From contig JADGKB010000041.1 of NCBI GenBank assembly GCA_027604185.1, positions 1-64,000 on the forward strand: a DNA stretch of 64,000 nt, written 5' to 3'. How positions within the stretch are numbered: position 1 is the stretch's first letter; every line of letters begins with the position of its first letter. Positions 112 through 63,701 of the stretch are shown here, one piece after another. Position numbers and translations under genes: made by a program. This DNA is from Boothiomyces macroporosus (lineage: Eukaryota; Chytridiomycota; Chytridiomycetes; Rhizophydiales; Terramycetaceae). Under the pieces are notes generated by a model. It did not search any database, was not told where the DNA came from, and was given only the letters and a program-made list of their open reading frames with translations.

Positions 112-1058
112 TTATTCATGATGCGATAGTTGATCCGTTTGCAAACTAATATTAGTATAAAGTACATTTTTGGCCCTGTGCCAGAATTAGATTTCTTCAA
201 CTCGCTCGGAGCTGGTGTAAACCAGTTTACGTTGAATGGCTTGGCTATTGTATCCCAAGCTTGGTTTAAAATCGCAGATGGAGTTACCTCTTGTTGTACC
301 GACTGTAGTATACAAGTTAGGGTTTTCTCTTGCATGTAGGCTTCATCGACCTGCGCTTTTATTATTACCCACTTTGTATTGAAAAACGTTTCGCTATTGT
401 TCTTTGAAAATGTATTTGGGGACCATTTTACCAGAAATATGCACTGTCCAAACTTGTAAGCCTCCGACAACCCTTGGGTCAACACCATATGATCGCTTAC
501 TGCGACAAATTCCATAATGTAGCGCATCATATAGGACATTGGCTCCAAATCCAAGTATTTATCTATTGGATACATTTGCAAGATTCTTCCCATCTTGTTT
601 ACTCTAAACGACACATTTGACCCTGATTTGTATTCCTTGCGAATGATAAATTCAGGCAATTGAGTGGTAATGTGTCCAATTTGTTCAATCTTCAGAGCTT
701 GGTTTTGTACTTTGCTGTATTCATTCTTTAGAAGGTCAACATCATCCAAAAACCACATGTCTGCAACTGGTTGGTCATCCACTATACTTCTATGCACGCA
801 GGCATAAACAGACTTGAGCTGCGCTGGATCTGCTTGAGGTAGCTCACAAACCTTTAACCCGTTTCCCTGATTTTCAGTTGGTACAAAATAATCGTGTATA
901 AACTTTCCTGCAAGCTCTGATTCTTCCGTATATTCCTTCACTAATAACTTCACCGCTTCCGGAGTTGCATCTTTAATTAATCCTGTTGATGGATCTGTCG
1001 TTATTCGAGCCTTGGTATGGAGTAAAACACATTTATCTGGTGTGTGATGCTCTGCCAT
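112..1058 (-). CDS. Unrecognised protein, about 308 aa, one 20-nt intron
   Basis: I do not recognise this protein. It is soluble-looking, with no signal peptide or membrane segment, and starts MAEHHTPDKC. The open frame continues upstream to a TTG at 1130 but holds no earlier ATG, so the ATG at 1058 is chosen. A 20-nt intron (146-165, reading GTACTTTATACTAATATTAG on the coding strand) lies near the 3' end; removing it replaces a ragged tail by ILQTDQLSHHE and a stop at 112. The frame upstream (ALFIHATANSLQ) looks protein-like and a short ATG frame lies at about 1145-1237, so the true N-terminus may lie in further exons. Existence is well supported by the length of the open frame; function is unknown. 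Confidence 0.7.
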
Positions 1059-1401
1059 TTGCAAAGAATTGGCTGTGGCATGAATAAACAATGCGCGAAC
1101 GTGGATATCAGATGCTTTATTGCATCTCAAGAGTTATTTCTGATATGTCAGCCATAGGTCCCATTTCACATTGTGAGACCATTGGCTGAGCCCAACAGTC
1201 ATCATCCCCCATCACGAAAAATGCAAGTGAGAAATACCGAGGGATTATTCGTCACCACGCTGGATATATCGAAATACCATGAAGCTCCAACTATTTGAAA
1301 CTGTTCCAGGGGAAGGTGTCATCGTGAAAAACTCAAACTTGACGCCCCATCTCAGTCAACCCCCAGTATGAAGCAAGTGAAAATGTTACCAAAATTCAAT
1401 A
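1059..1401. other. Divergent intergenic region with a possible upstream exon
   Basis: This lies between two divergently transcribed genes. On the minus strand about 1145-1237 holds an ATG frame beginning MGDDDCWAQPM and ending at a stop just before the frame of the upstream gene. It could be a 5' exon of that gene, but no 17-23 nt intron joins the two frames cleanly. Nothing else was recognised. Confidence 0.35.
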
Positions 1402-2184
1402 ATGGCCTGGTTACCAAAGTTGAAGGACACAGTTAAAAGAAACAGTACTCGTGATAACAGTAAAGCTTGATTAATTCTAGCGCTGGTTCAATGTGCATCA
1501 GTCCGCACTGATGGGACTCCAAAAATCCATTCGCTTGTCTTTAGGGAATTCCTTGGAGATTCCAACCTGGTTATCTTTTCCGGCTCTTCCAGAGACCCAG
1601 ATATGATGAGCGTAATGAAAAAATCAACCTCAGTGCATGAATTATATTGGAATTATCAAAAAGAAACATTTATCCTCGCAGGGAGATTTTACCTAGTTGC
1701 TTCGCCAAATTTATCGCACAGGCTAGGGACTCCACCTAGAAGACTAACCAACGACCCAAATCCTGAGGAATATTGGGAAAAGGAAAGAGAAAAACATTGG
1801 AAGTCTCTTTCAAGGGAATATCGTGCAAGCTTTTCATGGCCGGTCTCTGGAGAGCTTTTGAAACCATCAGAAACTGCCACATGGTCTGCATACAAAGGAA
1901 TTAACACTGTCAAACAATCGTATGGTCTGGATGTGGGCTACAAATACACCACCTTGGATGCTATGCCCATCAAGCAACTTACATTAGCAGAGTTAAAGAT
2001 CCGAGAAAACAATCCACAAGCAGAATTAGAAAATGTCCATCAGATGGCGTTTGACAATTTTTGTCTGTTGGTATTCAAGCCAACCAAAGTGGACCACACG
2101 GTAATTCCTAGGAGCGGAATTCCACAGAGATTCATTTACAGTACAGATAAAGATAATTGGGTTGTGGAAGAGGTAAATCCATAA
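1402..2184 (+). CDS. Pyridoxamine 5'-phosphate oxidase-like FMN-binding protein
   Basis: The 253-aa protein resembles the fungal Alr4036/Pyridox_oxase_2 type of split-barrel flavoproteins. Exons are 1402-1459 and 1481-2184; the 21-nt intron is 1460-1480. The spliced N-terminus (MAWLPKLKDTVKRNSTRDNT) runs straight into the family core: a strand ending VQCASVRTDGTPK, then SLVFREFLGDSN, a SGSSRDPDMM segment at the position where relatives have TDxRSxK, and ETFILAGRFYLV. The usual Arg/Ser/Lys of TDxRSxK is only partly kept, so FMN binding is inferred. A long stretch with WEKEREKHW matches the region before the C-terminal FxLL strand of the family. The substrate of this family is not established, and a role in vitamin B6 metabolism should not be assumed. 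Confidence 0.8.
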
Positions 2185-2228
2185 ATGTAATAAATTTAAA
2201 TTTCGACTTTTTTTTTTCATTCAAATCA

Positions 2229-3302
2229 ATGGCAAAGAAAAGCAGGAAGCAAGAACGACCAGAACCAGAAGAGGAAGAACAAATCTTGATTGACGAAGAA
2301 TTGTTGGAATCCAGAGCGATCGAAATTGTACAATTGGATGCGTTAGTGTTGATGAAAATCCTCAAGCATTGTGAACAAAATTCTGTTGCGAATGGACAGC
2401 TATTAGGTCTAGATATTTTGGAAAAATTACAAGTTACCCATTCAATTCCCTATCCTGCCAGTTTAAAATCAAGCGCTGAAGGGGAATCAGAAGAAGAATT
2501 GGGCACCTCTAATTATCCCCACGAAATGATGAATGCCTTGAATTACTTGGATTATGAAACCAACATTATTGGTTGGTACCAATCTACTTTGAATGGGTTT
2601 GTGTCACTCACTGATACTTTGGTTAAAACTCAGTATGATCATCAAACTCAATACGCGCAAGCAGTCCACTTGATTGTTAATCCAAGCAAAACTGCTGGTG
2701 GGCATCCTGTAGTTACCGCTATTCGTCTTACTGATGATTTCATGAAATTGTATGAATCAAAGAACTTTTCATTGAAAAATATCAACAAACACAATATCTC
2801 GGCCAGCACAGTATTTGAAACCCTGCCAATTCAAATCAAAAACTCCAACGTATTGAATGCCATGTTCCGCCAATTGTCTGAAGTTATCCCATCTACCAAC
2901 GTGGACGATTTGATTGTGGACCCTTTGACTCACGTAGTAAACAATCCTTCTTCTGAATTCTACTTGGAAAAACAGTTGGAATATTTGACTGAAGCTGTCG
3001 AAGATCAGGGACAAGAGCACTGGAGATGGCATACATGGTATCGTGGATTCCACAAGGAACAACAGAAAGCCATCGCACTATCTGCCAAGATGGCTCAGGA
3101 AAATGCTGCGGCTGTTGCTGCCGGTAAAAAACCAGTCTATTCTGAAGAGGAATTGGTTCCAAATACTCCAGCGTTGGCCAAGGCAATTGCGTCTGAACCG
3201 CCTCGTTTAGATAATCTACTCAACCACACGCTAATTGATGCATACTGCAATCAAATTATTAACTATGCTGGCTCCAATCCCGTAGAAACCGCTGCTGAAT
3301 AA
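2229..3302 (+). CDS. Eukaryotic translation initiation factor 3 subunit H
   Basis: This is an MPN-domain subunit of the cytoplasmic eIF3 complex that loads mRNA on the 40S ribosome. It is a single 357-aa exon starting at ATG 2229 after a T-rich leader. The N-terminus is acidic (PEPEEEEQ), then the MPN domain begins with VQLDALVLMKILKHCEQN and GQLLGLDILEKLQVTHSIP. NIIGWYQSTLNGF corresponds to the GWYQST segment of eIF3h. The JAMM metalloprotease residues are not present as a catalytic set, as expected for a structural MPN subunit. The length matches the family (about 340-380 aa), and the C-terminus forms the usual helical region. It ends 89 bases before the next gene on the same strand. Confidence 0.93.
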   Translation: MAKKSRKQERPEPEEEEQILIDEELLESRAIEIVQLDALVLMKILKHCEQNSVANGQLLGLDILEKLQVTHSIPYPASLKSSAEGESEEELGTSNYPHEMMNALNYLDYETNIIGWYQSTLNGFVSLTDTLVKTQYDHQTQYAQAVHLIVNPSKTAGGHPVVTAIRLTDDFMKLYESKNFSLKNINKHNISASTVFETLPIQIKNSNVLNAMFRQLSEVIPSTNVDDLIVDPLTHVVNNPSSEFYLEKQLEYLTEAVEDQGQEHWRWHTWYRGFHKEQQKAIALSAKMAQENAAAVAAGKKPVYSEEELVPNTPALAKAIASEPPRLDNLLNHTLIDAYCNQIINYAGSNPVETAAE

Positions 3303-3391
3303 ATACATTTTATCTCATGTTAAATTTCTAAACTTCAATACGTCATTCAATAAGCAAACAATCACTTATTGTTGAAAAAAGTTTGTTTTCA

Positions 3392-4616
3392 ATGGCAGAA
3401 GAAGTAAAAGTAAAGAGAGATGTAATCATAGGTCCGTAGATCACTAGGAGTGTACAGGTTTAATTCAGTTAACAGCAGGGGTCATGAAGGAACAGTTTAT
3501 TCGTTAGATGTATACTGGAAACGGTCGGCATCAATATCAGCATCAAAATCCAATCTAGGAAAAGTCACACCAGTAGACGCTGCAGATCTTACCAATTTAG
3601 TATACCTAGTGTCAGGTTCACACGATCAAAGCATCATTCTATGGGAAGTACAAACTAATTTAAACACCAAACCAGAAACTGTAAAGGTACACTACTTTTT
3701 ATTCAAGGTGGATCAAATTAGACGGCTGAAAGGACATTCTGGCGATGTTTACGCGTTAGAAGCCACTACTGAAGATGTGCTGCACCGCACCGGTAATTTA
3801 GTCTCTGGCGGAGATTATTCCATCAAAACCTGGAATACTGAGACCGGCACAGTTATGCAAACATTACATGGACACACTGGGTACGTGTCTTGTATCAAAG
3901 TCAGAGGCAAACGTGTATTCTCTGGTAGTTGGGATACGACAGTTCGATCATGGAATATAGAAGTATTTTTTGCTAATTCTAGACCGGCAAAGGAATGCAT
4001 GTGTTCAAAGGGCACAAAAATATTGTGAATTGCATTGAGGTTATTGATACGGATATATTTTCTGGTAGTTGGGATATGAATATCATCCAGTGGAATCGAG
4101 CCGTAATGTTCACTAATATAGACCGGAGAGCCAGTGCATATTTACCGTGGCCACACAGATGGGGTTCAGTGTATACAGTACTATGAAGATCACCTCTATA
4201 GCGGGTACTGTTTTCCTAATTAGATCAATGGATAAATCAATAAGGGTTTGGAATACGAAAACGGCAAAAACGACAAAGATATTTAGAGGACATCAAGGAG
4301 GAATCGAATGTTTACATGTGGTTAATGGCCATTGCTTTTCCGGATCGTATGATAAAACCATAAGGTAAGAAATCCCTAATCAAGATGTTTTCAAATCAAA
4401 GTATCTTTGGCTAATGTAGACGGGCGATTGTATAGCAATTTTCGAGGGCCACACCGATGGAGTGTATTGCCTTAAAGTATTTGCTGGCCGAATGTATAGT
4501 GGTTCCGGGGATAAATCGATTAGGTTATGGGATGTCAAAGTAGTCAATGTTAACATCAGGATATTGTATCGCAGAAGCGAAAAACTTTGTGGGAAAAGTT
4601 GTTCAGCTGTCTGTGA
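3392..4616 (+). CDS. WD40-repeat beta-propeller protein
   Basis: This is an intron-rich gene for a protein of about 355 aa made almost entirely of WD40 repeats. Clear units include GHEGTVYSLDV, SGSHDQSIILW, GHSGDVYAL, GHTGYVSCIKV with SGSWDTTVRSW, GHKNIVNCIEV, GHTDGVQCIQ, GHQGGIECLHV with SGSYDKTIR, and GHTDGVYCLKV with SGSGDKSIRLW. Introns: 3963-3982, 4103-4121, 4205-4223, 4365-4384, 4401-4419 and 4540-4559 (19-20 nt). The first intron is uncertain: 3436-3475 (40 nt, possibly two units) is used here, while 3432-3447 plus 3458-3475 also keeps frame. A further stop-free 21-nt candidate is 3687-3707. The exon 4385-4400 is only 16 nt. There is no F-box or zinc finger, so the protein is a scaffold of unknown partner. 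Confidence 0.85.
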
Positions 4617-4682
4617 CCACCTTATATCATTCATAATATTAATACATATTCATTTTGAACTGGTTTATTTTGTGAAATCAAA

Positions 4683-5971
4683 TTACATGGCTCCACGAGG
4701 GCCAAGTTTGTCGAGTGCTCTAGGTCCTAATTCAGCCCATTCAGCCTTGGTAATCCAGAATGATTCTCTGCTCTTCATAATCTCACCCAAAACAGCACCA
4801 CCCAAGAAAACCATGTGTTTACGTCTTGGCGGATCTTCAACCCTGATTTTGAATTTCTACCATTAGCATAAAGTACATTTAGTCTAGACGTATCACCTTG
4901 CAAGACCTTTTCCAAGTATAGTTGTCTAACTTCCTTTTCCAATCTACTTGGCAAACCTGGATACATTGAGGTACCACCAGATAACACGATATGTTTGTAC
5001 AATTCAGATCTAATATCAATTTCGGCAGAATTGATAGTATTAAACAATAATTCTACATAAATACAAAAGAGTACCTCCCACCCCAGGCGATTCAATATCT
5101 ACTAAATGTGGCTGGAAAAGAGCTTCAGGAGCTTCAAATCTTTCAGAGCCAATTTTGATTACACGGCCATCAGGCAACTAATATTTAGTAATTGTTACTG
5201 TGTACTGCTCCATCAAAACTGTGGTCTCAGTGGCGAGCTTATGTTCCAATTGCAAGTCATATCCAACGTAACACAGTTTTTCTTTAAGTTGGCGAACAGT
5301 TTCGAAATCGGCGGTTCTGTTGAATGCATATCCTCTTAGTAGTAATAGTTTGATGAGATATTTTGTAATGTCTCGTCCTGCGACATCCAAACGGCGAACA
5401 AGATGAGGAAGGGCGTAACCATCGTACACTGGAACAATGTGAGTGACACCATCACCGGAATCAACCACAACACCGGTTTGTAAACCTTTGTTATTTTTAA
5501 GCTAACCTTGTGCATAGAGGGTCAATACAGCTTGAATTGAAATAAACGCACCGCTGAATCCATAGTGTTCAAACATCACTTCCAGCATCTTTTCTCTGTT
5601 CTTTTTAGGATTCATTGCCGGTTCAGTTAATAGGATTTTGTGATCTGCATAGTTTTGAAGTCCAAGTTTTTCCTTGAAAGTGTAATCCCACAAGTGATAC
5701 ATGTCAGCCCAGTTGCGAACAATACCGTTTTCCATTGGATATGACATTTCAAGTTGAGCACGTAAAGCCGCCGCTTCATCTCCTACAATAATGTCTTTCA
5801 AGAATACATCTCCAGACTTTTCCTCCGCACGCAGGATTGGTCTACCGACAACAGCAGGGAAGATTGCAGTCGGAAAGTTGGTACCAGAGAATCCACATTT
5901 TACAAACTGTTGTTAATCTAGCGATTTACCCCAGTACCATTATCGCAAATTACTACTTCGTTCTTCGACAT
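4683..5971 (-). CDS. ARP2: Actin-related protein 2 (ARP2), Arp2/3 complex
   Basis: A 393-aa actin-fold ATPase that, with Arp3, nucleates branched actin filaments in the cytoplasm. The spliced protein starts [14 protein letters not shown] (phosphate loop 1), has [20 protein letters not shown] (phosphate loop 2) and [11 protein letters not shown], and ends [17 protein letters not shown] then LGPRGAM. The [11 protein letters not shown] segment is typical of Arp2 rather than actin. Introns are 5907-5929 (23 nt), 5486-5506 (21), 5178-5198 (21), 5053-5074 (22) and 4857-4876 (20). The last, GTACTTTATGCTAATGGTAG, restores [12 protein letters not shown] exactly as expected for the family, which is strong support for the intron model. 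It is convergent with the WD40 gene, 66 bases apart. Confidence 0.95.
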
Positions 5972-6161
5972 TGAGATGATTTCCCTTGTTGCGCAAAATC
6001 AAAGCCACCAAGAACTACACCCCAAATCTACACCTGCTATTGCCAACAATTAGTGATTCAACGAGCAAGCAAAAAGCTTCGCTTCGGTCGGAAGAACAGA
6101 TCTATCTTGTGGAAATAGGTGACTATTTGAAGTTTGTAAACTATTTGAAATATCGTGCATA

Positions 6162-6302: not shown

Positions 6303-7572
6303 ATGGGATATTCGGACGATCAGCTACTAACATTAAACACAGTAACAAAGAGTTCTGCAGTAGTAGGGTTTCTTGGCGTGTTGGCAATGTTTTTCGTAAT
6401 TTATCTTAATGTAGATGGTAATCAGAAACCCAGAATCCTTCAAAAACCCAACTGGAAGGTTGGTTTTAGCAATCACATTTACTGACCTCTTTGATAGTGG
6501 TAGGGTATTTCTTAACACAGTGACAAAGTTTATTGGTCGCTGGGGCCCAGATTCTGGGGTAACCAACTTCCTATGTTATTGGCAAACATGGTCAATCCAG
6601 CAATTTAATCTTTCGTCAATTATTCGTAATCCCAAACTAATCACAGTTGGTATGCTGATGGGTTTCAATACCGTTTATTTGATTTTCTTTAAAGGTTCAG
6701 TGGAGAGGATTCAAAAATTCGAACCTTACATGATTTTGGCCTCATTTGTCATCCCAATTCCATTTGCGTTATATCCATTGTTTGGAAAGCCAATGGGTAT
6801 TTCAATGGTTGGCGATGTGGATACCTGGTGCTGGATTTCAAAAGCTCACGCTGTATATCAGATTTACTTGTGGTTCGCCATCTTGTGGATTATTTTCGTA
6901 ATCAACTTGCTCATTCTTGCTGCTACTATTTGGGCAATCAAGAAAAACGAAAAGGCCCTGAAACAACCAGTTCAGTAAATCGATGCTAATATTAGAAATA
7001 ACAGCAAAATGTCCTTTGGTACATATGTTCAAAGGAGAATGCTAGCCTATTTGATTGGATTTGTGATCGTATGGACTCCATCTTCCCTCAACAGAATTGC
7101 ACAGATTGCACTTGGCTATCCAGTATACACTTTGGGTATTATGCAAGCGCTGGTGTCTCCAACCCGAGGATTCATTGATTTCTGTGCCTACTTTTACTCC
7201 TGGTGGTATTCACCTGCCAATATCAGAGACCGAAAGATGAGTGTGGATCAGGATCTAGGGTTGGACAAAAAGAAGGGCAAAACTTTGAATATTCAGAAAT
7301 CGACCCAAACTCTCCGCAAATCTCCTTCGATCGACCCTAACGACGCGCTATTTTCCACTGAAACTTTGAACAAGGCTGAAAAAACTCGCAAATTCTCTGA
7401 TGTACCAACTACCGGAAGTCGCAAGTTTTCTGCTGATATCCCGCATAGCGGTAGCCGTAAATTCTCTGCTGATATCCCTTTGGAAAATAAGCGGGCAACT
7501 TCATATGGAGATTATATGAGCGACTCAAGGATTTTTAGCCCTGATGGTTCTGACCCAAATGTTTCTAAATAA
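6303..7572 (+). CDS. Seven-transmembrane cAMP-receptor-like GPCR, paralogue 1
   Basis: A plasma-membrane receptor of the fungal CRL/Git3-like class, 395 aa after splicing. Seven hydrophobic segments can be followed from SAVVGFLGVLAMFF to SPTRGFIDFCAYFYSWW. Cysteines in FLCYWQTWS and DTWCWI could form the extracellular disulfide. Introns are 6396-6414 (19 nt), 6500-6520, 6626-6646 and 6975-6995 (21 nt each). The second and third contain no in-frame stop, but paralogue 3 shows a stop in one and a 20-nt length in the other, proving they are introns. Exon sizes 93/85/105/328 are identical in all three paralogues. The Ser-rich C-tail has the phosphosite-like unit RKFSADIP twice plus RKFSDVP, an expansion absent from the other copies. 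The ligand is unknown. Confidence 0.88.
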
Positions 7573-8190
7573 ACTCTACTTTTTTAAAGGTCTTTCCAAT
7601 CTATTCTGTTCAAATTCAAAGCCGTTTCAAGTCAGCTATCAAACTGGAGCATTCTTCAGATACCAAAGACTCGTTGCTGGGTGTTTTGATAGTCCAGTTG
7701 AATAGCAATAGAATTTAATGAGTTGCAGAGACCAACTGCCTCTAAACTAAATATTTTGACAGGCATCGATTCACTCCCATGTTTTAACCACTAAAAGAAC
7801 AAAGTTCATTGGACACTTAAAACTTGAGGTCTTTTTAGTGCCAAATTGTTCAAGAAATCAGCGAACCATGCACTGTTTCTGAATCCTGGACTCTCCATAA
7901 TCTAATACTTTGATTTCTAACAGGATTTGACTGTGTAAGTTGCATTCATAAATCCTGGTAATAGAAACCTGTATAGTTCTTGGCCCTAATAGTAAAGGCT
8001 TGGGAAATATCTCCAATGTTACCGGTCAGTGATAGCGATTAACACTGTTCTTTTACGTGTGCTCTCGATTTAAAAGTGTTAGCTACGGAAACCAGTCGCA
8101 TTCAATAATATTTAAATACATTTATTCGAACTTTTAACAAATAAGATTGCGAATACTGAAAACATGATTCTAAAGACCATTTTATGTGGA

Positions 8191-8231
8191 AGTGGCTAGC
8201 TGGTGGAAATAATCCGCCACCACTAGCCACT
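8191..8231. repeat. Inverted repeat, stem of about 15 bp
   Basis: AGTGGCTAG at the left arm pairs exactly with CTAGCCACT at the right arm, and TGGTGG with CCACCA inside it, with a loop of about 9 bases. It lies roughly 200 bases upstream of GPCR 2. It is not followed by a T-run typical of a terminator; the role is unknown. Confidence 0.6.
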
Positions 8232-8383
8232 TGCGAAATTTTATAAGCGATTTCGATAAAAGTCTAGGTAGCATTCGTTTCCATCAAATGAATGAGCGAA
8301 AATTTTATTTGCAACTGCACACTAGCAGAATATCGAGATGTAATGCCTCAATATCCACTTCAATGTTACCTTAAAGTTCTGAC

Positions 8384-8430
8384 GTCAAAGGTTGCGTAAA
8401 TCGCCGATCATTTTTTTGACATCAATTCCA
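8384..8430 (+). promoter_or_regulatory. Conserved GPCR core-promoter block, copy 2
   Basis: GTCAAAGGTTGCGTAAATCG continuing into CCGATC, a T-run and GACATCAATTCCA directly before ATG. It is almost identical to copy 3 (10127-10173) and close to copy 1. The preceding GAC completes a GACGTC site. Confidence 0.6.
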
Positions 8431-9580
8431 ATGGCATATTCTGTAGTGCAACAGCTCACATTGAACATTCTCATCAAGGTTTCATCGGTCATAGGCTTTT
8501 TTGGTGTTTTGGCCATGGGTTTTGTAATTGATCTTAATTTAGATGGTAATTAGAAATCCTTCGTCTTTCAAAAACCCAACTGGAAGGTTGGTTTTAGCAA
8601 TCACATTTACTGACCTCTTTGATAGTGGTAGGGTATTTCTTAACACAGTGACAAAGTTTATTGGTCGCTGGGGCCCAGATTCTGGTTTGACATCTGCCCT
8701 ATGCTACTGGCAAGCGTGGTCAATCCAACAATTTAATCTTTCGTCAATTATTCGTAATCCCAAACTAATCATAGTTGGTATGTTGATGGGGTTCAATACC
8801 GTTTATTTAATTTTCTTCAAAGGCACTGTGGACAAGATTCAAAAGTTTGAGCCATATATGATTTTGGCATCGTTCGTCATTCCGGTTCCATTTGCTCTCT
8901 ATCCGTTATTCGCAAAGCCAACTGGTGTCTCAATGATAGGTGATGTTGATAACTGGTGCTGGATTTCAAAATCCCTCCCAGTTTATCAAATATCGCTATG
9001 GTTTGGAATCTTGTGGGCAATTTTCTTGCTCAACTTGCTCATTCTTGCTATTACTGTATATGGTATTAAAAAAGGCGAACAGGATCTGAAGCAACCATCC
9101 CAGTAATTCAAATTAACTGTTAGAAATAATACCAAATCGTCATTTGGTGCGTATATTCAAAAAAGAATGCTCGCATACTTGATTGGCTTTGCTATTGTAT
9201 GGTTTCCAACGTCGATTAACAGGATTGTTCAAATTGCTCTGGGCAGTCCGGTATTTGCTATTGGTGTTATCCACGCTACTTTAACCCCAACTCGCGGGTT
9301 GATTAATTTCTGTGCCTACTTTTATGCATGGTGGCATTCTCCTGCCAATGTGCGAGATCGCAGTGGGGCAAAGAGCAGTGATACTGCCTCTGGAAAGAAG
9401 GACAAACATGCTGACAATCAAAAGTTGGGCCAATCAATTCGCACATCTCCGTCAATTGACGCTAATGATTCAGGACTTCGAAATGACACTTCTAACATGT
9501 CTGAAAAGACGCGAAAATTCTCAGACTTGCCTACCAGCAACAGCCATAAATATTCTATGGATAATTCACTGAAAAATTAG
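8431..9580 (+). CDS. Seven-transmembrane cAMP-receptor-like GPCR, paralogue 2
   Basis: A 355-aa receptor with the same architecture as its neighbours and exons 93/85/105/328/457. Introns are 8524-8542 (19 nt), 8628-8648, 8754-8774 and 9103-9123 (21 nt). The second is identical to that of paralogue 1, within a tract of about 110 bases that does not differ between the two genes (about 6432-6545 and 8560-8673). Further downstream the sequence instead matches paralogue 3 almost exactly (about 8880-9018). The C-tail is shorter and carries TRKFSDLP, a kinase-site-like motif shared with paralogue 1. Tandem duplication with later gene conversion explains this mosaic. The ligand is not predictable from sequence. 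Confidence 0.88.
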
Positions 9581-10173
9581 GTGGCCACATATCTAAGTTT
9601 TAGGAAAAAGATAATCACTTTTGAATAAAATGTACCTTTTTGAATATGATGTATATGTGATATTCCGTGCTTGATCCAAAATTTGAGAAATTTAAACTGG
9701 TGGCTACCATTCGATATGGAATTCGTTCCCAATCGCTTTCATCGCTCCTCTGCTATATGGAGCAAGGTTGTACTGCCTGTTTAACATTAGCTGAAATTAT
9801 TCAATAATGCCAATATGAGGTACACAAAGATCTACTTGAAAACAGTCTTTTACGGGAATTTTTCAGTTTGACCTGGAAAGTGGAATACCATTCAATCAAC
9901 TCATCAATTAGCACGTAAAGTGATTTATGAACTACTAAAATTTTGGTATTCAAAAATTCGAATCCATTAAATCGCGTAACTAGAGGTAGAATTTGGAAAT
10001 AATCGAATTTTGAAAGGAGATCCATACTTGTTTGGCATTCAAAGGTATATAGCACCATTGCGAAATTGATTAATGTCTTTTCTAAATGGTTCTTCAAGTA
10101 ACCAACGTCACCTTTCAGATTTTGTTGTCAAAGGTTGCATAAATCGCCGATCATTTTTTTGACATCAATTCCA
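9581..10173. other. Intergenic region between GPCR 2 and GPCR 3
   Basis: A minus-strand frame of 98 codons (9801-10097) is open, rich in aromatic and hydrophobic residues, and resembles nothing I know. It has no partner exon and I consider it chance. Copy 3 of the GPCR promoter block occupies 10127-10173. Confidence 0.5.
10127..10173 (+). promoter_or_regulatory. Conserved GPCR core-promoter block, copy 3
   Basis: GTCAAAGGTTGCATAAATCG, then CCGATC, a T-run and GACATCAATTCCA before the ATG. It differs from copy 2 at about one position, although the DNA further upstream is unrelated. Confidence 0.6.
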
Positions 10174-11346
10174 ATGGCATATTCAACAAACCAACTTTTC
10201 ATATTGAACATAATAATCAAAAGCTCTTCCGTTTTAGGATTTATTGGCGTGTTGGCAATGATTGCAGTATCTACTTTTAATTCAGATGGTCATTAGGTAT
10301 CCAGATTCATTTAAAAATCCAACTGGAAGATTGGTTTTAGCAATCACATTTACTGATTTCTTTGATAGTAGTAATTAATTCATTTATGCAGTTACTAAAT
10401 TTATTGGACAGTGGGGACCAGACTCTGGATTGACATCTGCCCTATGCTACTGGCAGGCATGGTCAATCCAGCAATTCAACATCTCTTCAATTATTCGTAA
10501 TCTCAGTTAATCATAGTTGGTTTGCTGATGGGGTTGAATACTGTGTATTTGATATACTTTAAGGGATCAGTAGATACCATTCAAAAGTTTGAGCCCTATA
10601 TGATTTTGGCATCATTCGTCATTCCGGTTCCATTTGCTCTCTATCCGTTATTCGCAAAGCCAACTGGTGTCTCAATGATAGGTGATGTTGATAACTGGTG
10701 CTGGATTTCAAAATCCCTCCCAGTTTATCAAATATCGCTATGGTTTGGAATCTTGTGGACCATCTTCTTGCTAAATTTACTGATGCTTGGTATTACTGTT
10801 TGGACAATCAAGAAAAATGAACATTCATTTAACCAGTTAATACAGTAATTCAAACTAAAGTTTAGAAGCAACACCAAAACCTCATTTGGCGCTTACATCC
10901 AAAAACGAATGCTGGCGTATTTGATTGGCTTTATTATCGTTTGGCTCCCTACATCCGTAAATAGAATTGTACAAATAGCACTTGGCAACCAAGTGTTTGC
11001 TGTAGGCATAATTCATGCAATGCTAACTCCTACACGTGGATTCATTGACTTTTGTGCCTACTTTTATACATGGTGGCATTCTCCTGCCAGTGTCAGAGAC
11101 CCCAAGATGAGCATAGGAAAGAGCAGTATAGTAGGCCCTTCCAAGGAGAAAGACTCTGAATATCAAATATGGAGCCATTCTGTTCGGACATCTCCATCGA
11201 TCGACGACAGTGACGGAATATATCCCACACTTAATTCTAGTACAACTGAAAGGCGGCGAAGGTACTCTGATTTGCCTAGCAGTGCAAGTAACAAATACTC
11301 TGTGTACGGCTCTTTTGAAATATTATTTGACCAACATTGTAAATAA
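10174..11346 (+). CDS. Seven-transmembrane cAMP-receptor-like GPCR, paralogue 3
   Basis: A 363-aa receptor with exon sizes 93/85/105/328/481, matching its paralogues. In raw translation it looks dead, with a TAA after FDSS and a frame break after TSSII. Both disappear with introns 10371-10391 (21 nt, holding the TAA) and 10497-10516 (20 nt where the paralogues have 21). The other introns are 10267-10285 and 10845-10865. The gene is therefore probably intact. The C-tail carries RRRYSDLP, a basophilic-kinase-like site at the place of RKFSD in the other two. It is the last member of the tandem array, convergent with the DUF1295 gene. Confidence 0.85.
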
Positions 11347-43650: not shown

Positions 43651-44363
43651 ATGTCTTCAATCGCAGAGAAAACACTAGCCAAACAATTTAAAGGTATTTT
43701 CAAACTGAAAAAGAATTATCCACTCATCCGGTGCCAGGGTTTAACGTTGAATTAAAGAACGATAATATTTTCGAATGGCAGTAAGATAAATTAACCTAGG
43801 GTTGGAATTATCGGACCGCCAGATACTATTTATCAAGGAGGATACTTTCTAGCAACGCTAAAGTTCCCAGAGGACTTTCCTTTCAATCCCCCAACGTTTA
43901 CCTTTAATTCAGATTTTTTCCACCCCAATGTATATACTGACGGCAAGCTATGTATTTCCATCTTGCATCCACCTGGCGATGATCCATTAAGGTAATTATT
44001 ACTAACATAGTGGGGAAAAAGCCGAAGAGAGATGGAACCCTACCCAATCAGTTGAAAGTATTTTACTGTCAGTCGTTTCACTAATCAATGATCCTAATTG
44101 CTCTTCACCAGCAAATGTAGACGCCGGAGTAATGTATCGCAAAGACAGGGACCAATATAATGCTATTGTAAAGAAACAAGTTGAAGAATCTAAAAAGAAT
44201 ATTCCGCTTGAAGTACATATTCCTACTACTGGTAAATTACATTAACCTAGATGATCAATATCAAGTTAAATATCAAAAACAAGAGATGACTCCAGATGAT
44301 AACGATTTCTGGTGTGAAGATGATGACCAGGAAAGCTTTGGGGTAGACTCTGATGACGATTAG
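43651..44363 (+). CDS. CDC34: CDC34/UBE2R-type ubiquitin-conjugating enzyme
   Basis: A 211-aa E2 enzyme that works with SCF-type ligases. The UBC fold shows [32 protein letters not shown] and the active-site Cys in [15 protein letters not shown], followed by the acidic insertion and [16 protein letters not shown]. The insertion after the active site and the acidic C-terminal tail ([16 protein letters not shown]) identify CDC34/UBE2R rather than UBE2G. Introns are 43694-43713 (20 nt), 43781-43799, 43992-44010 and 44232-44250 (19 nt). The first ends AAAAAG rather than TAG/CAG. The gene is convergent with RPN1, 130 bases apart. Confidence 0.94.
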
Positions 44364-52669: not shown

Positions 52670-55251
52670 ATGTACAAGGAAAAACGAGTGTTGGTCGCAT
52701 CCCTATTCTTACCCATCACAACAACCAATACACTCAGGAAGAAGCAATCATTCAGAAAGCAAATTCCAATCTCACCAGTATCTTTTGAAAAAACGAATAA
52801 CGGTAATCCCGGTCTGTATAATGCCGTTTGCTCCCTTGATTTGGACTGTATATGGATTGGAACCATCGTTGGATTGAATAAGGATCAGGAAACCGAATCG
52901 AAATTAAATAGGTACAATGCTAAACCAGTTATACTGACCGACCAAGAACATGACGGTCATTACAATCAATTCTGTAAGCAGGTGCTTTGGAAACCATTTC
53001 ATTACCAATTCTCCGATGACTTGACTATTACAAGGATACAAAAGAGTTGGAACTATTATAAAATAGTCAATCAGAAATTCGCAGATGTTATTATTGCAAA
53101 TTATAGGGAAGGAGACTTGATTTGGATCAACGATTATCATTTGATGTTGGTTCCAGAAATGGTTAGAAAAGTATTACCAAAAGCTACCATTGGATTCTTT
53201 CTACACATTCCATTCCCCAGTTCGGAAATATTCAGATGCTTGTCCAGTAATTAATACTAATACTAGTGCGTAAAGAACTCTTACGAGGTCTATTAGGTGC
53301 AGATTTGATTGGATTTCAAATCTATTCATTCATGCGTCACTTTTTAATGACCTGCTCAAGATTATTGGGGTTGGATTCTAACCCTAAAGCTATACTTATG
53401 GATGACAGTAGGGTCGCAGTTGGCTCATTTCCAATTGGTATTGACTTGAAATCTTTGAAAGAAAAACGTGCACACCCGGAAGTTGCCAAGCTAGTTGCTT
53501 CACTTTTGGAGAAATACAAAGGGCAGTATGTACTCATTGGCAGAGACAAGAATGATCAAGTCAAAGGTGTTGATCACAAGTTATTGGCATTCGAAAGATT
53601 CTTGGAGGACCATCCTGAATTCCATGGAAAAGTAGTATTGATCCAAGTATCTTTATCCACCGCAACAGAGAATGAGGAACAGTCTAATGTCGATCATTTG
53701 GTTTCTAGGATAAACTCGCGATTTGGAAGTATTGGGTATATTCCGGTAGTGTACCTTCACCAAGACATTTCATTTCATCACTATTTGGCATTATTGACCA
53801 TGGCGGATGCATGTTTAATTACCAGTTTGAGAGATGGAATGAATTTAACATCCCACGAGTATGTAATTTGCCAGGAAGAGAAAAAGAGCCCATTGATCAT
53901 CAGTGAATTTGCTGGTACGTATGGAAACTTTGGTGCCGCATTAAGGGTAACCATTATATAATTTCCAGGTAAATCCTTGGAACCACAAAGAAGTTTCAGA
54001 GGCGATTTATGAAGCATTAACAATGAATGAAGAAGATAAAGCCTACCGATGGAAAATGCTAAATTCGTACATCGCCACAAATACTGGTAAATTATTGTTA
54101 ATGAAGCCCAACAATACGTTGATAGTTTCTTGGGAGATTTAATTACAGCTCATGAAGAAAACATTCAAGCAGCTTCAACAAGTATTCCATTCTTGCCATT
54201 CGAATGGGCAAGAAGGGAATACTACAAGTCCAACAAGCGAATTCTATTCATGGACGATGAAGGCACTCTAACTACTCCACAAGTTACTAATCATTTTAAT
54301 GATTTTCAAAAAGACAAGAAACAAATGTTCCAACTGCTCACTCAACTGTGCAAAGACGAAAAGAACCATGTATATTTAATGAGTAGTCGAACTAGGGCAG
54401 ACTTGGAAGAATATTTGGCAATTCCACGTTTAGGAATAAGGTTAATATTAGCTAACATAGTGCTGAATCTGGCTGCTTTGTAAGATTTCCAGATCGAACG
54501 CATTGGGAAACTTTGCACAAGGAAGTAGACATGACCTGGCGTAAAAAAGTAATGGAAGTGTTTGAATATTACACAGAGTAAGTTAAATTAACATAGTCGT
54601 ACTCCAGGGTCCTTTATCGAAGAAAAAGAAATTGGAATTGCATGGCATTATGGTTTTGCAGATCAAAAGTATGGAGAATGGCAAGCGCAAGAGTGCCAGA
54701 ATCATATCAGCAACACACTTCAAACATTCCCCATCCATATTTTGTCTCGCAAACACTGTATTGAAGTGTACCTTCGAAATGTAAGCAAGGCAACAGCTGT
54801 TCGTCGTATTCTACAACACCACCAGGGCAAGAACCGTCGTCACTCTTTCCAAGCAGAACTTCAGTCTCCAACAATCGACATTTCACAATACTCTGTCACA
54901 TCTTTTGCCAGCAGTACAGCTTCCTTTGATTTCTCAAACACACAAATATGCGATTTCATTCTTGCCATTGGAAACGATCGTACTGACGAGTACATGTTTG
55001 AATATCTAAACAAACTAATAACGAAAAGACTGGAATCACAAAAGTCTCAGTATTTTGATGATGAAAAGGATAATTGCTCTATTACCAGTTATGCTGAAAG
55101 TAACAAGAGTGAGTATACTGTTTCAAATGCTCTGCTGCAGCAAATCTGCTGTATTACTTGTACTGTAGGCTGCAAGAGTAGTAATGCCAAATGGCATGTT
55201 AGTAATATTAGCGAAATGATCCAAGGTGTAGAAACGTTATTGAAAATATAA
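52670..55251 (+). CDS. Trehalose-6-phosphate synthase/phosphatase-like fusion, probably regulatory
   Basis: An 826-aa cytosolic protein with a GT20 synthase-like domain followed by a phosphatase-like domain. The first has RVLVASLFLPITTTN, WINDYHLMLVPEMVR, RKELLRGLLGADLIGFQ, IGRDKNDQVKGVD and TSLRDGMNLTSHEY. The second has LFMDDEGTLTT where active trehalose phosphatases have DYDGTL, so the general acid Asp is Glu, and it carries a Ser-rich insertion (SVTSFASSTASF) before CDFILAIGNDRTDEYMF. This points to a Tsl1/Tps3-type regulatory subunit more than to Tps2, though the synthase Arg/Lys pair is partly kept. Introns are 53247-53266, 53947-53968, 54087-54106, 54441-54460 and 54578-54596 (19-22 nt). 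Confidence 0.9.
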
Positions 55252-55263: not shown

Positions 55264-56737
55264 TTAAATCAATTCGTTTTCATCCCATTTTGCTTTTAGT
55301 TTAATAAATACATTAGTTCCCTTGCCTGGGTTAACGATGGTTACCAAGTTCAGATTCAATCCAGATATCCCCCTTTAAAAATCTAGCGTATAATCTTGAA
55401 AGCGGTAGCCCGTACCCATATCCAGCCATAACCTATATTAATGATGACTACTGCTGCACCAGGCTTGATTGGTCTTGCTGCTGTAGTATAGTGAAACAAG
55501 AAAACCTTTTCCAGTATTTCAGGATTGATGCCAATCCCATGATCCCGCACTTCAAAAATGCAATGCTGGATTAGATAAATAATACTTCCGCTGTAGTGTG
55601 CCAATGCACGATAATTGGCGGTAGCTGAGAGGTTTTCACAACACCATACTCTCCAACTTTCAGTAATTCTCGCTCAATGACTGCTCTCATTGCGTTCTTT
55701 AATAATTCAAATAAAATGTGCTGCAAGTGACTTGTTAGTTCGAGTATACCTTGGAATATAGAGTAAATCAAAATTTTTGGATTCTGGTGTACAGCTAAGT
55801 TCGATAGGCGGCACACATCCATAAGTAATCATACACAAATCCTCCGCTAATTGCACTGATTCTGTAACTATATCTTCTATAGGAGTCTTTGTACAAAAAA
55901 TCCCAATCATGTTATCCAACGGTAATGGTTTTGAAAGTGCAACGCAGTGCCCAATCAATAATCTGACAGCAATTCTTTGCATATGAAATTTTGTTAAAAA
56001 TGTCTGCAGTTCATCTTTAGTTAGTAGCTTATCAAGCAGTGCCCTATTTTCCTCTTGCGCTGCGAGTAACATAATTGGCTTGTGTCGCGCAACTGCTCTC
56101 TCTAGAACATGGAATAATTTATCAGTCAAATGCTCCGCTTTACTGGCCAAGATAGGGTCGTGGCATTCTGTTCCAAATACACTATGGTGAAACCAAATTA
56201 CATTTTATCTAGATCTTCCTCTGGTGGTGCCATATTCTCTGGCAGTACAATCTGAAATAAGCTTGATATTACTGGTTTTTCTGATTTAAATAGTGAAAAA
56301 GGCCATGATTTGCTCGGCTGTTCTGGCCAACTATTAGTCGCCTGTCCTCGACGCATTCGTTCAATTTCATCCGTGAATTCAAATAATTCCTTGTTAGTTT
56401 GAAAATACTTGACAGGTCTTTGTGTACAGAGCTTTGATTTGTCTAGCAAATTCTAAATCCCTAATTTGGGGTATATCATCGATTTCCTTACACCGCCTTG
56501 CTAATCTGACTGTAATTTCATCTGCGGTTATTGTCGGTTACCTGCGACTATTCTTGAAGCTGCGTTATAACAAATTACCTTGTAAGCAGTGAAGTTTAGT
56601 TGGATTGGTTCCTTTGTTACATGTAAGATACCTGGTCCCAAATGCTCCTTTACTTTAATTTTCCGGAACGGTCTGGTTGCAATTTGGCTCATCCTGACTG
56701 TAGTTTCACTATGGAGTAAGCGCTTGAACGTTATCAT
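55264..56737 (-). CDS. PDK/BCKDK-family mitochondrial protein kinase
   Basis: A 445-aa kinase of the GHKL fold that phosphorylates the E1 subunit of pyruvate or branched-chain 2-oxoacid dehydrogenase. It opens with a basic Ser-rich presequence (MITFKRLLHSETTVRMS). The ATP site shows the N-box SHLQHILFELLKNAMRA, the G1 box VRDHGIGI and the G2 box AGYGYGLPLSRLYARF. The four-helix regulatory domain precedes it, with FLTKFHMQRIAVRLLIGHCV. Introns are 56522-56541, 56390-56408, 56182-56201, 55731-55749, 55566-55585, 55433-55451 and 55326-55344 (19-20 nt). A stretch rich in Trp and Pro near residue 130 is not usual. Whether it acts on PDH or BCKDH cannot be told. Confidence 0.92.
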
Positions 56738-56805: not shown

Positions 56806-57348
56806 TTAATGAAGATTAAATATAACGGAGAACATTACGATCACCGCTATTAGCCAGACGATGAGAATAGAGGATAGCCAGATGTTTAATCTTTCCCACC
56901 AGAGGGAGTTTGGATGCGGATGTCTTTTGGTAATGGAATAGAAGCAACCCACGCACCATGCGAGCGGACAGCAAAATCCAACAAAAAATAGTGTTCGGTG
57001 TAAGTTCTCTCCTGGTTGAACATAGATGACGGAAGGTTGATTGATTGGCATTGGCTGTTGCGAAACGAATTGATTTGGGTATTGTTGGTTTTGATAAACG
57101 TAAACCTGATTGTTGAGGGGGTATTGAGGTCTAAATTGGTTTGGCTGATTGAATTGAGGTTGAAATTGCCCTGGTGGTGGATTAGGTGGGGGCAAATATT
57201 GGTTGTAATTCATCTGAACTGGTGGTTGCTGGTTGACTTGCATCGCTGGATATATTGGTCGGGAAGGTCCTGGATTCAATTCAGGGACAACCTCTTGGTA
57301 TGGTGGAGGTAAGCTATCTCCCACATCTGGGTTGATTTTTTTTCCCAT
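56806..57348 (-). CDS. Proline-rich PPxY membrane protein
   Basis: A 180-aa single-exon protein. The N-terminal 110 residues are rich in Pro, Gln and Asn and include DSLPPPYQEVVPE, a PPxY motif of the kind bound by WW domains of Rsp5/NEDD4 ligases, and repeated Pro/Gln runs. The C-terminus has a Cys-containing hydrophobic segment (FFVGFCCPLAWCVGCFYS), a short basic loop (ITKRHPHPNSLWWER) and a second helix (LSSILIVWLIAVIVMFSV). The overall plan recalls small ligase adaptors of endosomes such as LITAF or Bsd2, but it lacks the CxxC pairs of LITAF. Function is therefore open. Confidence 0.7.
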   Translation of the reverse strand: MGKKINPDVGDSLPPPYQEVVPELNPGPSRPIYPAMQVNQQPPVQMNYNQYLPPPNPPPGQFQPQFNQPNQFRPQYPLNNQVYVYQNQQYPNQFVSQQPMPINQPSVIYVQPGENLHRTLFFVGFCCPLAWCVGCFYSITKRHPHPNSLWWERLNIWLSSILIVWLIAVIVMFSVIFNLH

Positions 57349-59144: not shown

Positions 59145-59159
59145 GATTTATTAGGAAAA

Positions 59160-60770: not shown

Positions 60771-61337
60771 AGAAAATCATGAAATGCCAACCTTTTTATA
60801 CTCTTTTTTCCACGCTTTCCAAATTAACTGTAGATTTCAAGATCCTTCCCTTTTATAGAACCACAGAAGAAATACGCGGTTTAATTTTAGCCTAATCAGG
60901 CAAATCAGTTGTATTCAAAATCGTGTTCTACATGTAGCCATTCAGGAAGTAAATGAGAGTTTTTTGAAAAAAGTATCGATGTACCTTTGTATAATTACAT
61001 GTAATTTAGAATGGAAAAATATGTGTTATATGGTCACTGCCAAGCTTTTGATTACCAGGTCCCTCATCCTAAAAAGGCAAACTCCTGTAAATTGAAACGG
61101 TTGATCATATTCTAAAATTAGTTATTTAAATAGATTACGACCTATTATACTCCTGCAGACCATTTACAAAACCGAAAAGATTGGTTTGGACAAAAACCGA
61201 TCAACTCCGAGTATCCTTAAAAGCTCTCAGGGCCGAGTAATAAATCAAGATTATCAATCTGCGGAATAATTGAAATGGTATTCGAACAACTCCTTCCTCA
61301 ATAAAGAGGGTACTCTCGATCCATTTAAAATCTTTAT
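60771..61337. other. Intergenic region upstream of the hydrolase
   Basis: 567 bases between the 5' end of the hydrolase gene and the 3' end of PMT2. It contains a TATA-like TTTTTATACTC read from the other strand near the hydrolase start. No frame or RNA gene seen. Confidence 0.45.
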
Positions 61338-63701
61338 TTAGTAGATATTCCACGCATTCAACCATTGTCTTGATGCCCAGTTGCTTGCTGGCCCAACCAT
61401 TCCAAATGTAAAATCCCAGAAATAAACAAATCCTAAAATAAAGATGATTCCAATCAGTGCGAGCCCTGCTTGATGAGCAAACTTTGGCAATTTGCCGAGG
61501 AAGTGGTCAGCCAAAGTTACAAAAGTAACCATTGCAAAGTAGAGTGCAGGGAAATAATGATGCAGGCTTGGTTAAAGAAAAGATCTTACTACATGACTCT
61601 ACCCATGATGTAGAAAGGTATATAATGCAAGAACCATCCAAGTAACCCAATTTCAGCCTGGAAAAGGAAATCTGCCCATTCATCTGACTATTAAAATAAA
61701 TTACCGGGATTAAAGTCTTTTAAACCTCTTGCTCGCCTTATCGTGTAGACTATGATCGTGACAATGAGTCCAACGAGAGACGCAGTGGTAGACCACCAAA
61801 TGAGAGGATTGCCAAGCAAATAATATTTTACATCTGTATCTCCCCAACCACAAATTCTCAGCCCTCTGAGCAAGAATGGCCAATGATATGGTTTTGATTC
61901 AAGTTGGCCCATCTCTTTGAATGGATCAGGAGTGAGTGCGTTATTTGATGACCACATTGCCACATTCAAATCGATGAAATCACGCAAGAAACTGGACCTG
62001 TAGGCATTCATACCACCTGGCGGCAATTTTGGATTTACGTGCAATTCGATATTCCACATTTCTGGTTTTGCGCTTGGATCTGGCTTCTTTTGGCAAACAA
62101 CTTCTCCCTGTTTGAATCCCCATTCAGGTAAAGTAACTCCATCTGATCTTAAAGCGCAACCAAGGTTCACGTGAATCAATTTAAATCTAGTAGTAAGTGA
62201 ACGGAACTCATTGTGTGAGTTATCGTGAATATCCTATCGTCAAAACGTTCATACATCAACTTTTTCAATTCTCCAGTGATCGTTAGTGTCGTTAAATGCA
62301 CCATACCCACTAACTTCGTATTCGCTGCTTGTAACTGGAGCATCCACTTTGTGAGAGTGCAAATTTTTTGATGTTTGCTCATGTACTGGAATAAAGAAAA
62401 AATTACCCAATCTGATAATATCTCCATCCTTTACAAATTCAGGTGGATCGTCTTCATTCCTTGGTGGTGCGTCCCAATATTTTTCTACGATCCATTCATT
62501 GTTTGCGTCCTTGTGAGAGTATGTGGTGACTTGCTGTTGTTCTGAGCCTTCAGGGAAGCGCTGAACGTGCGAGTGCAATAGACCACCACCTCTGGCGTTA
62601 TTCTTCAAGGTAATTTTAGAGCCATATGCAAGAGCTAAAATTAACTAAAATTACTCAACGGATTGGAGCTAAAATCGTTTCCTCCTAAACCTGCTTGGAA
62701 TAACGAGCTCATTTGCGCATCTCCAGGACCAGAATGACTTAGAATTGCAAAATGAAGAACAAACGAAAACATATACACCAAAATTGGAACGATAATCAAG
62801 CAAAGAACTCGAGATCCCCAGTGAATAACTTGGGTCTTTAGAGTCAGCTTGATATTTCCATAGAGTTCCCACAAATCTTCAATTGTGTGCAGTCCAACCA
62901 ACGCAATCGAAAACAATCCCACCCATTTAACACTAGGATAAAATTAAAGTTACCTTGAAACTAATCCTAAAGATATACCGCTTAGCAAGAGCCATCCAAA
63001 CCATTCTGGTGAAAATACATCTGTATTTTGATAAGTTCTGAAAACACACACGCAATATACTGCAAAGCAAGTAAAGAAAAGCAACATGGCATCAAGTAAA
63101 ATGAATCTGGTAATTGTAGCCCAAGCATTATCTTGATAAATATGCACTTACCAACAATAGTCATTACTGCAAGTAAAATTGCTGCACCGTGCGATAATCT
63201 GAGATGAATAGCGGTCCAGTACGCTAGAGGGGTGCAGAAAGCACCAAATAATCCATTGACAAACCTCATAACTCCGTAGCTAACTTCTTCCGGATATTTG
63301 GCTCCAGATTCAAATTCAAACTTTCCATTAAACCCACCTAAAGTTCCAGCAAAAGCATTCAGCATCTTTCCAAGTGGTGGATGAACATCAAAATAAAAAG
63401 TGTGCTTGATATAATAGCCAGCAAACTTTCTAGTGTTATTTAAAGGTACCCAAAGTGCGCTTCGTCCCATACAACATAATCCGAGAATGATATTTTGTAT
63501 AATCTGGTCCATAGTGCGATTGCGGTCAAAATCAAGCAAACAATCATACTCCCTTTGGGAACAGTGCGCAACACTCGAGTCTAAAATTAAACACCCGCCT
63601 ACTTTGGAGTGGACTTTCTCTTCCGTTTCATATATGACTGGAGTGGTGATTTTTTGCTGAGGCTTTTTCCTCTGCTGCAATCCAAAGTCTTGAGATGACA
63701 T
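61338..63701 (-). CDS. Protein O-mannosyltransferase, PMT2 family
   Basis: A 731-aa enzyme of the endoplasmic reticulum that transfers mannose from dolichol-phosphate mannose to Ser/Thr. It has the catalytic Asp-Glu loop VVWDEAHFGKFAGYYIKH, DVHPPLGKML, RFILLDAMLLFF, three MIR-domain motifs (LLHSHVQRFPEGSEQQQVT, RLGNFFFIPVHEQTS, FKLIHVNLGCALRSDG) and the C-terminal YLHHYFPALYFA. WDEAHFGKF and EGSEQQQVT place it in PMT2 rather than PMT1 or PMT4. Introns are 63581-63602 (22 nt), 63430-63449, 63132-63151, 62933-62953, 62635-62654, 62234-62254, 61684-61704 and 61567-61589 (23 nt). With eight introns it is one of the most interrupted genes here. Confidence 0.96.

Follow-up and report, generated by a model that had tools for sequence, protein, structure and literature searches.

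Introns of about 20 nucleotides, single and in abutting arrays, in the chytrid Boothiomyces macroporosus

The nucleomorph introns of Bigelowiella natans range from 18 to 21 nucleotides (nt), and introns of the same size class, much shorter than is usual in fungi, are described here for a chytrid fungus. The subject is a 64,000-nt stretch of the Boothiomyces macroporosus genome (assembly GCA_027604185.1, contig JADGKB010000041.1, positions 1 to 64,000; hereafter the window), in which an initial annotation, made from the letters of the DNA alone, had proposed about 105 introns of 17–23 nt in 24 genes. An independent count with our own gene finder likewise gave 105 introns, 103 of them 17–23 nt long, and curation brought the set to about 108 introns in 25 gene models (hand-summed).

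The nucleomorph introns are described as 19 nt long and present at high density (PMC2483917), with their bulk at 18–20 nt (PMC5014332). Dicyemids also have very short introns (PMC2483917), and in ciliates the introns of Stentor measure 15–16 nt (15 nt in PMC12862383) and those of Paramecium about 25 bp (PMC5014332). The Bigelowiella nucleomorph and some ciliates had been named initially as the only comparable cases; both comparisons hold, but the dicyemids make the list incomplete. The nucleomorph and the chytrid have the size class, the high intron density and the GT-AG ends in common, whereas the former is a relic endosymbiont nucleus and the latter concerns a main genome in which Slu7, Prp18, SF1 and U2AF65 are present and introns form abutting arrays. 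With the ciliates, a different lineage, the chytrid shares donor, branch and acceptor that nearly touch; Slu7 and Prp18, both present in the chytrid, are listed as not found in the table of the Stentor paper (PMC9505925). Cryptococcus neoformans is also a short-intron fungus, with an average of 56 nt, a small population below 40 nt and the term ultrashort used for introns below 60 nt (PMC11913375), whereas the chytrid norm in our sample is 19–23 nt. Searches of open-licence PMC papers, directed at short introns of chytrids and fungi and at nucleomorph-like sizes, gave no account of introns of about 20 nt as the norm in a chytrid.

Intron length and geometry

The window was scanned for the pattern GT...YTAAY-N1-5-AG at each length from 12 to 120 nt, with Markov-1 shuffles as background. 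Lengths of 19, 20 and 21 nt gave 37, 38 and 20 matches (sum 95) against 11.6, 12.2 and 11.0 (34.8) in the shuffles, while every other length gave at most 17 against about 11. Since a pattern scan could favour the signal it seeks, a length-neutral gene finder was written that scores codon usage, admits GT-AG introns of 10–150 nt and weights all lengths alike. Of the 130 window introns that it placed, 79 measured 19–23 nt and the remainder were spread flat; with the branch-point term also removed, 178 of 353 introns fell at 17–24 nt (window and genome sample together). The finder with a length prior returned the 105 window introns in 36 gene models. A 5' intron of MOT1 (28241–28259) turned out to be false, the true start reading MTTRLDRLVLLLDTGST as in protein P0121 of Boothiomyces sp. 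JEL0838, and two doubtful introns (57 nt at 30460, 17 nt at 31749) were removed from the list. A 38-nt model intron in MOT1 resolved into two abutting 19-nt introns, and five 21-nt introns without an in-frame stop, missed by the finder, were added. The curated lengths are 19 nt (32 introns), 20 nt (35), 21 nt (26), 22 nt (11) and 23 nt (4); the introns at 29356 (g17) and 57012 (g33) have the gene finder as their sole support. The intron set of the initial annotation was thereby confirmed, but the abutting introns and the stopless 21-nt introns had escaped it. Rfam and tRNA scans of the window gave no matches.

The assembly comprises 15.2 Mb in 216 contigs, the window lying on contig C41, and the genome was sampled as twenty 10-kb stretches from twenty other contigs (200 kb of the 15.2 Mb). 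Without a length prior, 146 of 191 sample introns fell at 17–24 nt, whereas the same finder with decoy ends placed 5 (TG-AG), 9 (GT-GA), 4 (CT-AC), 3 (AT-AC) and 4 (GC-AG) introns in that range, GC-AG being no pure decoy because it is a rare real class. The GT start and AG end first read from the window are thus upheld, as GT-AG gives the length peak and the other dinucleotide pairs give none. Introns longer than 24 nt made up 44 of the 191 for GT-AG, compared with 57–122 for the other pairs, so that longer introns show no surplus. The initial annotation would have given way had longer introns been the norm elsewhere; in these twenty stretches the norm is the ultrashort class. With the length prior, 270 of 277 sample introns measured 19–24 nt; seven were longer, two of which, at 57 and 102 nt, consist of abutting introns. 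Intron density is 1.8–2.1 per kb of coding sequence. RPN1 and MOT1 of the window are 99% identical to their Boothiomyces sp. JEL0838 counterparts, the 1% difference pointing to another strain or species, and those of Globomyces and Kappamyces follow (all chytrids); we take the order of these three genera to be Rhizophydiales.

A branch motif does precede the acceptor, as proposed, although the initial wording (CTAAT, TTAAT or TTAAC) was loose: in a pool of 371 introns, 74% have a YTRAY where one is expected. A branch motif of acceptable quality is present in 364. Its A follows the first G at a distance of 13 or 14 nt in 323 of these and precedes the last G by 5 or 6 nt in 327, and the four combinations of these two arms are represented by 77, 73, 72 and 69 introns. 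The same four cells hold 96 of the 126 YTRAY-holding introns from the finder without a branch term, in which the donor-branch and branch-acceptor arms are independent (Fisher p 0.54). Donors in the sample read GTAATT, not GTAAGT (+3 A 91%, +4 A 59%, +5 T 47%, +6 T 57%), and position −3 is T in 67%. Where both donors were allowed, 392 model introns of 17–24 nt comprised 386 with GT and 6 with GC.

Conserved proteins across the junctions

A junction was counted as clean if visual comparison with the best solved structure showed no indel within five residues or, for RPN1 and MOT1, if exactly 11 residues spanned it in at least 88 of 120 homologs. By this measure, the eight proteins compared have 42 testable junctions, of which 34 are clean. 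All five junctions of ARP2 and all four of casein kinase I are gap-free against solved ARP2 and CK1 delta, as are both aligned junctions of SUCLG1 (one more lies outside the alignment). Clean junctions number five of seven in cullin-3 (against solved cullin-3), two of four in the R-type ubiquitin-conjugating E2, six of the seven aligned in the protein O-mannosyltransferase (PMT; one more outside the alignment), four of six in RPN1 (each in at least 103 of 120 homologs) and six of seven in MOT1, whose eighth model intron is the false one. Junctions also sit in the motifs that had been singled out initially, namely a 12-residue motif of ARP2, HRLILSGTP of MOT1 and a site near the end of cullin-3.

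Introns of 21 nt at 39723–39743 (SUCLG1) and 62386–62406 (PMT) appear as seven extra residues relative to solved structures, having been translated by the finder because they hold no stop. In two of three tandem paralogs, the segments at 6500–6520 (g6) and 8628–8648 (g7) are identical over 21 nt, and the matching site is spliced in the model of the third. Selection for in-frame stops in introns divisible by three was considered, as stops occur in 75 of 88 introns at 21 nt compared with 50 of 92 at 19 nt and 99 of 149 at 20 nt; the idea was dropped because the finder misses stopless 21-nt introns. In those conserved parts that were compared, the JEL0838 gene models do not contain the segments, and introns of such size are therefore implicit in public annotation. 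Some public models of relatives are fused to their neighbours, the RPN1 of JEL0838 being joined to the next gene (P0001 and P0241 are affected).

Abutting introns with zero-length exons

Two described systems come close to introns in direct contact. Drosophila ratchet points have a juxtaposed AG/GT and an apparent zero-nucleotide exon (PMC8605326), but their setting is a long intron and they depend on a cryptic exon downstream, whereas the chytrid unit is about 20 nt long and up to eight follow one another. The stwintrons of fungi are complex intervening sequences that call for consecutive splicing reactions (PMC9024468); they are nested, with the inner intron splitting a splice signal of the outer one, whereas the chytrid units lie side by side with AG/GT juxtaposed, each complete with its own donor, branch and acceptor. 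Literature searches on twin, tandem and abutting introns among open-licence PMC papers gave no account of such arrays. The new feature is introns that adjoin with only a zero-length exon between them, a pair in MOT1 and a run of eight in a PWWP-domain gene.

Across the MOT1 pair (27782–27819) there is no indel in 88 of 120 homologs. At other loci, three abutting introns add up to 57 nt (L017), introns of 20 and 19 nt abut in L021 (absent from the length-prior model), and the PWWP-domain gene (L024) carries its eight at 2430–2591 (+), 162 nt in units of 21, 21, 20, 20, 20, 21, 20 and 19 nt, the fifth with a GC donor. The same gene has two more abutting GC-AG introns of 21 nt each at 2919–2960. 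In the PWWP protein of Terramyces sp. JEL0728 (74% identical), the site of the eight-unit array reads GYSWWPAKVETEQDLPP and that of the GC-AG pair KRRKSMPA; Globomyces and Cladochytrium proteins are also continuous at the former. A PF01328 domain on the PWWP protein of a relative is taken for a fused neighbour gene.

A regular expression for adjoining introns found 7 pairs in 264 kb, against 0.05 in order-3 shuffles; one of the seven, at 40909, is not a pair, because half of the match is cullin-3 exon sequence next to a genuine intron. Over the whole genome, an intron-then-intron pattern gave 34 matches (30 distinct), compared with 1 when read backwards and 11 for an AG/AT control, which stands for a single intron with a chance follower; scaled by exon-start composition, this control puts about 8 of the 34 down to chance. 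Unit scoring identified true arrays at 8 of 12 inspected loci (L038, L039, L040, L042, L043, L044, L047 and L048) and none at L037, L041, L045 and L046, so the 34 matches include false ones. Two full units flanked by AG and GT were matched six times in the genome and never backwards. With an estimated pattern sensitivity of 0.146, the genome may hold on the order of 150 abutting pairs, which is a rough figure. Four array sequences occur twice (C10, C18, C20, C49/C100), so part of the assembly is duplicated, as unmerged haplotypes or segmental copies. The arrays at C12:116206-116248 (-) and C43:77527-77571 (+) share most of their sequence, being either copied arrays or parts of paralogous genes.

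One gene (L042) has two triple arrays, at 1501–1557 and 1863–1924 (+). In the first, one 19-nt unit is present in two identical copies next to a third that differs at three positions, and the next exon opens with the same seven bases; this is the pattern expected after tandem duplication and points to it. Intron gain by this route is known in a potato gene (PMC4974935). Among the chytrid arrays, L042 is the only locus at which tandem duplication is apparent from the sequence. As a general origin of the arrays it is unsupported, since the resemblance of neighbouring units does not significantly exceed that of shuffled pairs (p 0.086, 30 distinct pairs).

Table 1. Intron-bearing gene models of the window. 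Introns are listed by start position, with the length in nt in brackets; models and introns are from the finder with length prior unless stated otherwise.
Feature	Position	Strand	Introns	Remark
g1	112-1058	-	146-165 (20)	
g2	1402-2184	+	1460-1480 (21)	
g4	3392-4616	+	3410 (22), 3963 (20), 4103 (19), 4205 (19), 4365 (20), 4401 (19), 4540 (20)	7 introns
g4 stopless intron	3458-3478	+	(21)	likely only
g5, ARP2	4683-5971	-	5907 (23), 5486 (21), 5178 (21), 5053 (22), 4857 (20)	
g6	6303-7572	+	6396 (19), 6626 (21), 6975 (21), stopless 6500-6520 (21)	first of three tandem paralogs
g7	8431-9580	+	8524 (19), 8754 (21), 9103 (21), stopless 8628-8648 (21)	second paralog
g8	10174-10848	+	10267 (19), 10371 (21), 10497 (20)	third paralog
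g10	12261-13398	-	12996 (20), 12710 (20)	
g12	15941-17729	-	17554 (20), 17513 (21), 17251 (20), 17011 (20), 16749 (21), 16277 (22)	
g15, casein kinase I	21141-22336	-	22206 (22), 22073 (22), 21902 (22), 21327 (23)	
g16, MOT1/BTAF1	22638-28283	-	28015 (19), double 27782-27819, 26901 (19), 24105 (21), 23901 (21), 23343 (21), 22891 (20)	
MOT1 abutting intron 1	27801-27819	-	(19)	GTAACAATTTCTAATATAG
MOT1 abutting intron 2	27782-27800	-	(19)	GTAACTTGAATTAATTTAG; zero-length exon between the two
g17	28902-29379	-	29356 (19)	weak model
g20	32366-36247	+	35236 (20), 35728 (19)	
g21	36263-37310	-	36681 (20), 36601 (20)	
g23, succinyl-CoA ligase alpha (SUCLG1)	38844-39892	+	38866 (22), 38986 (22), 39125 (21)	
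g23 stopless in-frame intron	39723-39743	+	(21)	GTATTTTTGCATTGATTATAG; first seen as 7-residue insertion
g24, cullin-3	40018-42425	+	40063 (20), 40413 (19), 40780 (21), 40927 (23), 41505 (20), 41991 (20), 42381 (20)	
g25	42525-43466	+	42736 (19), 43127 (19), 43254 (19)	
g26, ubiquitin-conjugating E2 R type	43651-44363	+	43694 (20), 43781 (19), 43992 (19), 44232 (19)	
g27, RPN1	44494-47233	-	47138 (21), 46768 (20), 46520 (20), 46148 (22), 45745 (21), 44521 (20)	
g28	47367-48961	-	48927 (20), 48787 (19), 48564 (19), 48397 (19), 48219 (20), 47771 (19)	
g30	50300-51909	+	50415 (19), 50902 (19), 51178 (19), 51519 (20)	
g31	52670-55251	+	53247 (20), 53947 (22), 54087 (20), 54441 (20), 54578 (19)	
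g32	55264-56692	-	56522 (20), 56390 (19), 56252 (21), 56182 (20), 55731 (19), 55566 (20), 55433 (19), 55326 (19)	
g33	56886-57348	-	57012 (19)	unusual donor GTCA
g36, protein O-mannosyltransferase	61338-63701	-	63581 (22), 63430 (20), 63132 (20), 62933 (21), 62635 (20), 62234 (21), 61684 (21), 61567 (23)	best solved match PMT2
g36 stopless in-frame intron	62386-62406	-	(21)	GTAATTTTTTCTTTATTCCAG; 7-residue insertion, without clean YTRAY

Among the window genes, g4, which we take to encode a WD-repeat protein, includes a 16-nt exon between 4384 and 4401. The three tandem paralogs at 6303–10848 (+) follow one another at intervals of about 2.1 kb, have their intron positions in common, and presumably encode a receptor-like membrane protein. 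The protein encoded at 18090–19439 (+) is intronless and is assumed to resemble RtcB RNA ligase.

Splicing machinery and competing explanations

Searches for small nuclear RNAs found U2 in two copies (142 bits), U6 (62 bits) and U1 (68.8 bits). The parts that contact the intron are canonical in all three: U1 starts with AUACUUACCUG, and U2 and U6 contain GUAGUA and ACAGAG, respectively. Genes for Slu7, Prp18, SF1, U2AF65 and Prp8 are encoded and, among the spliceosomal protein genes searched, carry ultrashort introns themselves; Prp8 aligns to human Prp8 across 2,062 residues, and the U2AF65 match lies under the family cut-off in an exon-by-exon search. Changes in U2, SF1, U2AF and Prp8 had been suggested as worth looking for; all are encoded (U2AF as U2AF65), and the branch contact of U2 is canonical. 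A loss of Slu7 and Prp18, expected from the short branch-to-acceptor distance, is ruled out by the presence of both. A change in U1 or U6 that would compensate for the weak +5 position was likewise expected and rejected, both RNAs being canonical there. RED_N, sought as a short-intron factor, gave no match, but its profile matched nowhere searched and the result is uninformative. Judged on the parts searched, the spliceosome appears ordinary and complete-looking.

On all of this, the segments are almost certainly introns, and their most plausible class is that of fungal spliceosomal introns of the U2 type, judging by their GT/GC-AG ends, their branch motif and the presence of U1, U2, U6 and Prp8. 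It is very probable, as far as sequence can tell, that such introns have been compressed to about 20 nt across the sampled genome and are removed by the ordinary spliceosome just described, working through arms of fixed reach. Intron length would then be set by two stiff arms of 13/14 and 5/6 nt that vary independently, with the intron holding its signals and nothing else. With the branch A at nucleotide 14 or 15 and U6 over the first six, the helix between U2 and the branch would start about 2 nt later. The donor-bound U6 and the branch-bound U2 would therefore sit almost edge to edge, so that donor and acceptor would be chosen by fixed reach and not by scanning; a shorter intron could not hold both RNAs, and a longer one would be paired poorly or not at all. 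That each arm takes two values hints at a physical reach in either direction. That the spliceosome must tolerate crowding, as the initial annotation held, would follow from this geometry.

Several observations weigh against this interpretation. Eight of the 42 junctions adjoin indels or sit in variable stretches, the JEL0838 annotation of MOT1 (P0121) implies a different boundary at one junction, one of the 105 model introns proved false and two were dropped, and a few of the seven longer sample introns could be real. No YTRAY is present in 52 of the 178 introns from the finder without a branch term. The +5 position is G in only 18% of donors although U1 and U6 are canonical, which leaves the basis of donor choice unexplained. 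The U1 match is 0.7 bits under the Rfam cut-off (68.8 vs 69.5), and Slu7 and Prp18 are kept although the short branch-to-acceptor distance might make them dispensable.

The alternative that survives best attributes the rigid size to deletion bias and shared ancestry without any physical ruler, longer introns being removable but few of them left. The compact genome with its intron-rich genes is in keeping with this, but deletion bias alone should leave a ragged tail, whereas each arm is confined to two values, and, as the arrays show, additional length can be accommodated provided that it is made up of whole units. We therefore consider it unlikely. Somewhat less likely still is that each array is one intron of 38–162 nt that is spliced out in a single reaction, from its first donor to its last acceptor, with the inner GT, branch and AG as relics. 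Removal of a whole array restores frame and protein either way, and the second unit of the eight-unit array has no clean YTRAY at the usual place. However, introns of 38–162 nt without inner units are not above background, and removal in one step would need a length unseen in the sample; relics should also lose their signals, whereas the units keep both spacing and signals, three of them with GC donors in the same gene. Errors of sequencing or assembly, coding inserts that are retained, or DNA that is eliminated are most improbable as explanations of the segments, for although a stopless 21-nt segment could be translated as seven residues, the GT-AG borders are sharp and the branch motif positioned with no peak for other dinucleotide pairs, conserved proteins run on across the junctions, and the segments are missing from the annotated proteins of the 99%-identical relative wherever conserved parts were compared.

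Because every unit has retained a donor, a branch and an acceptor of its own with unchanged spacing, we lean towards removal of the arrays unit by unit, in which taking out one unit would leave the next donor at the exon edge, one after another. More tentatively, the spliceosome of this lineage could act as a ruler that accepts almost only units of 19–23 nt, so that longer sequence would survive only in the form of complete head-to-tail units, taken out in turn through zero-length exons, and introns would be gained by self-adjacent duplication. Arrays could grow, shrink and diverge almost neutrally, because the mature mRNA would be independent of unit number.

Extrapolated from the sample, the genome would hold thousands of introns of 19–21 nt. 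Gene models of this clade would be broken by predictors that demand introns of at least 30–40 nt, and a stopless 21-nt intron would come out as seven false residues, as happened in our own models. How small a spliceosomal intron can be, and whether there is room for U1/U6 next to U2, are structural problems for which most of the available organisms are difficult experimental subjects; in a chytrid with ordinary-looking spliceosomal parts they can be tested. The arrays provide a natural length series: if their units are spliced alone, length is measured and not merely tolerated, and the arrays would suggest a simple route for introns to multiply.

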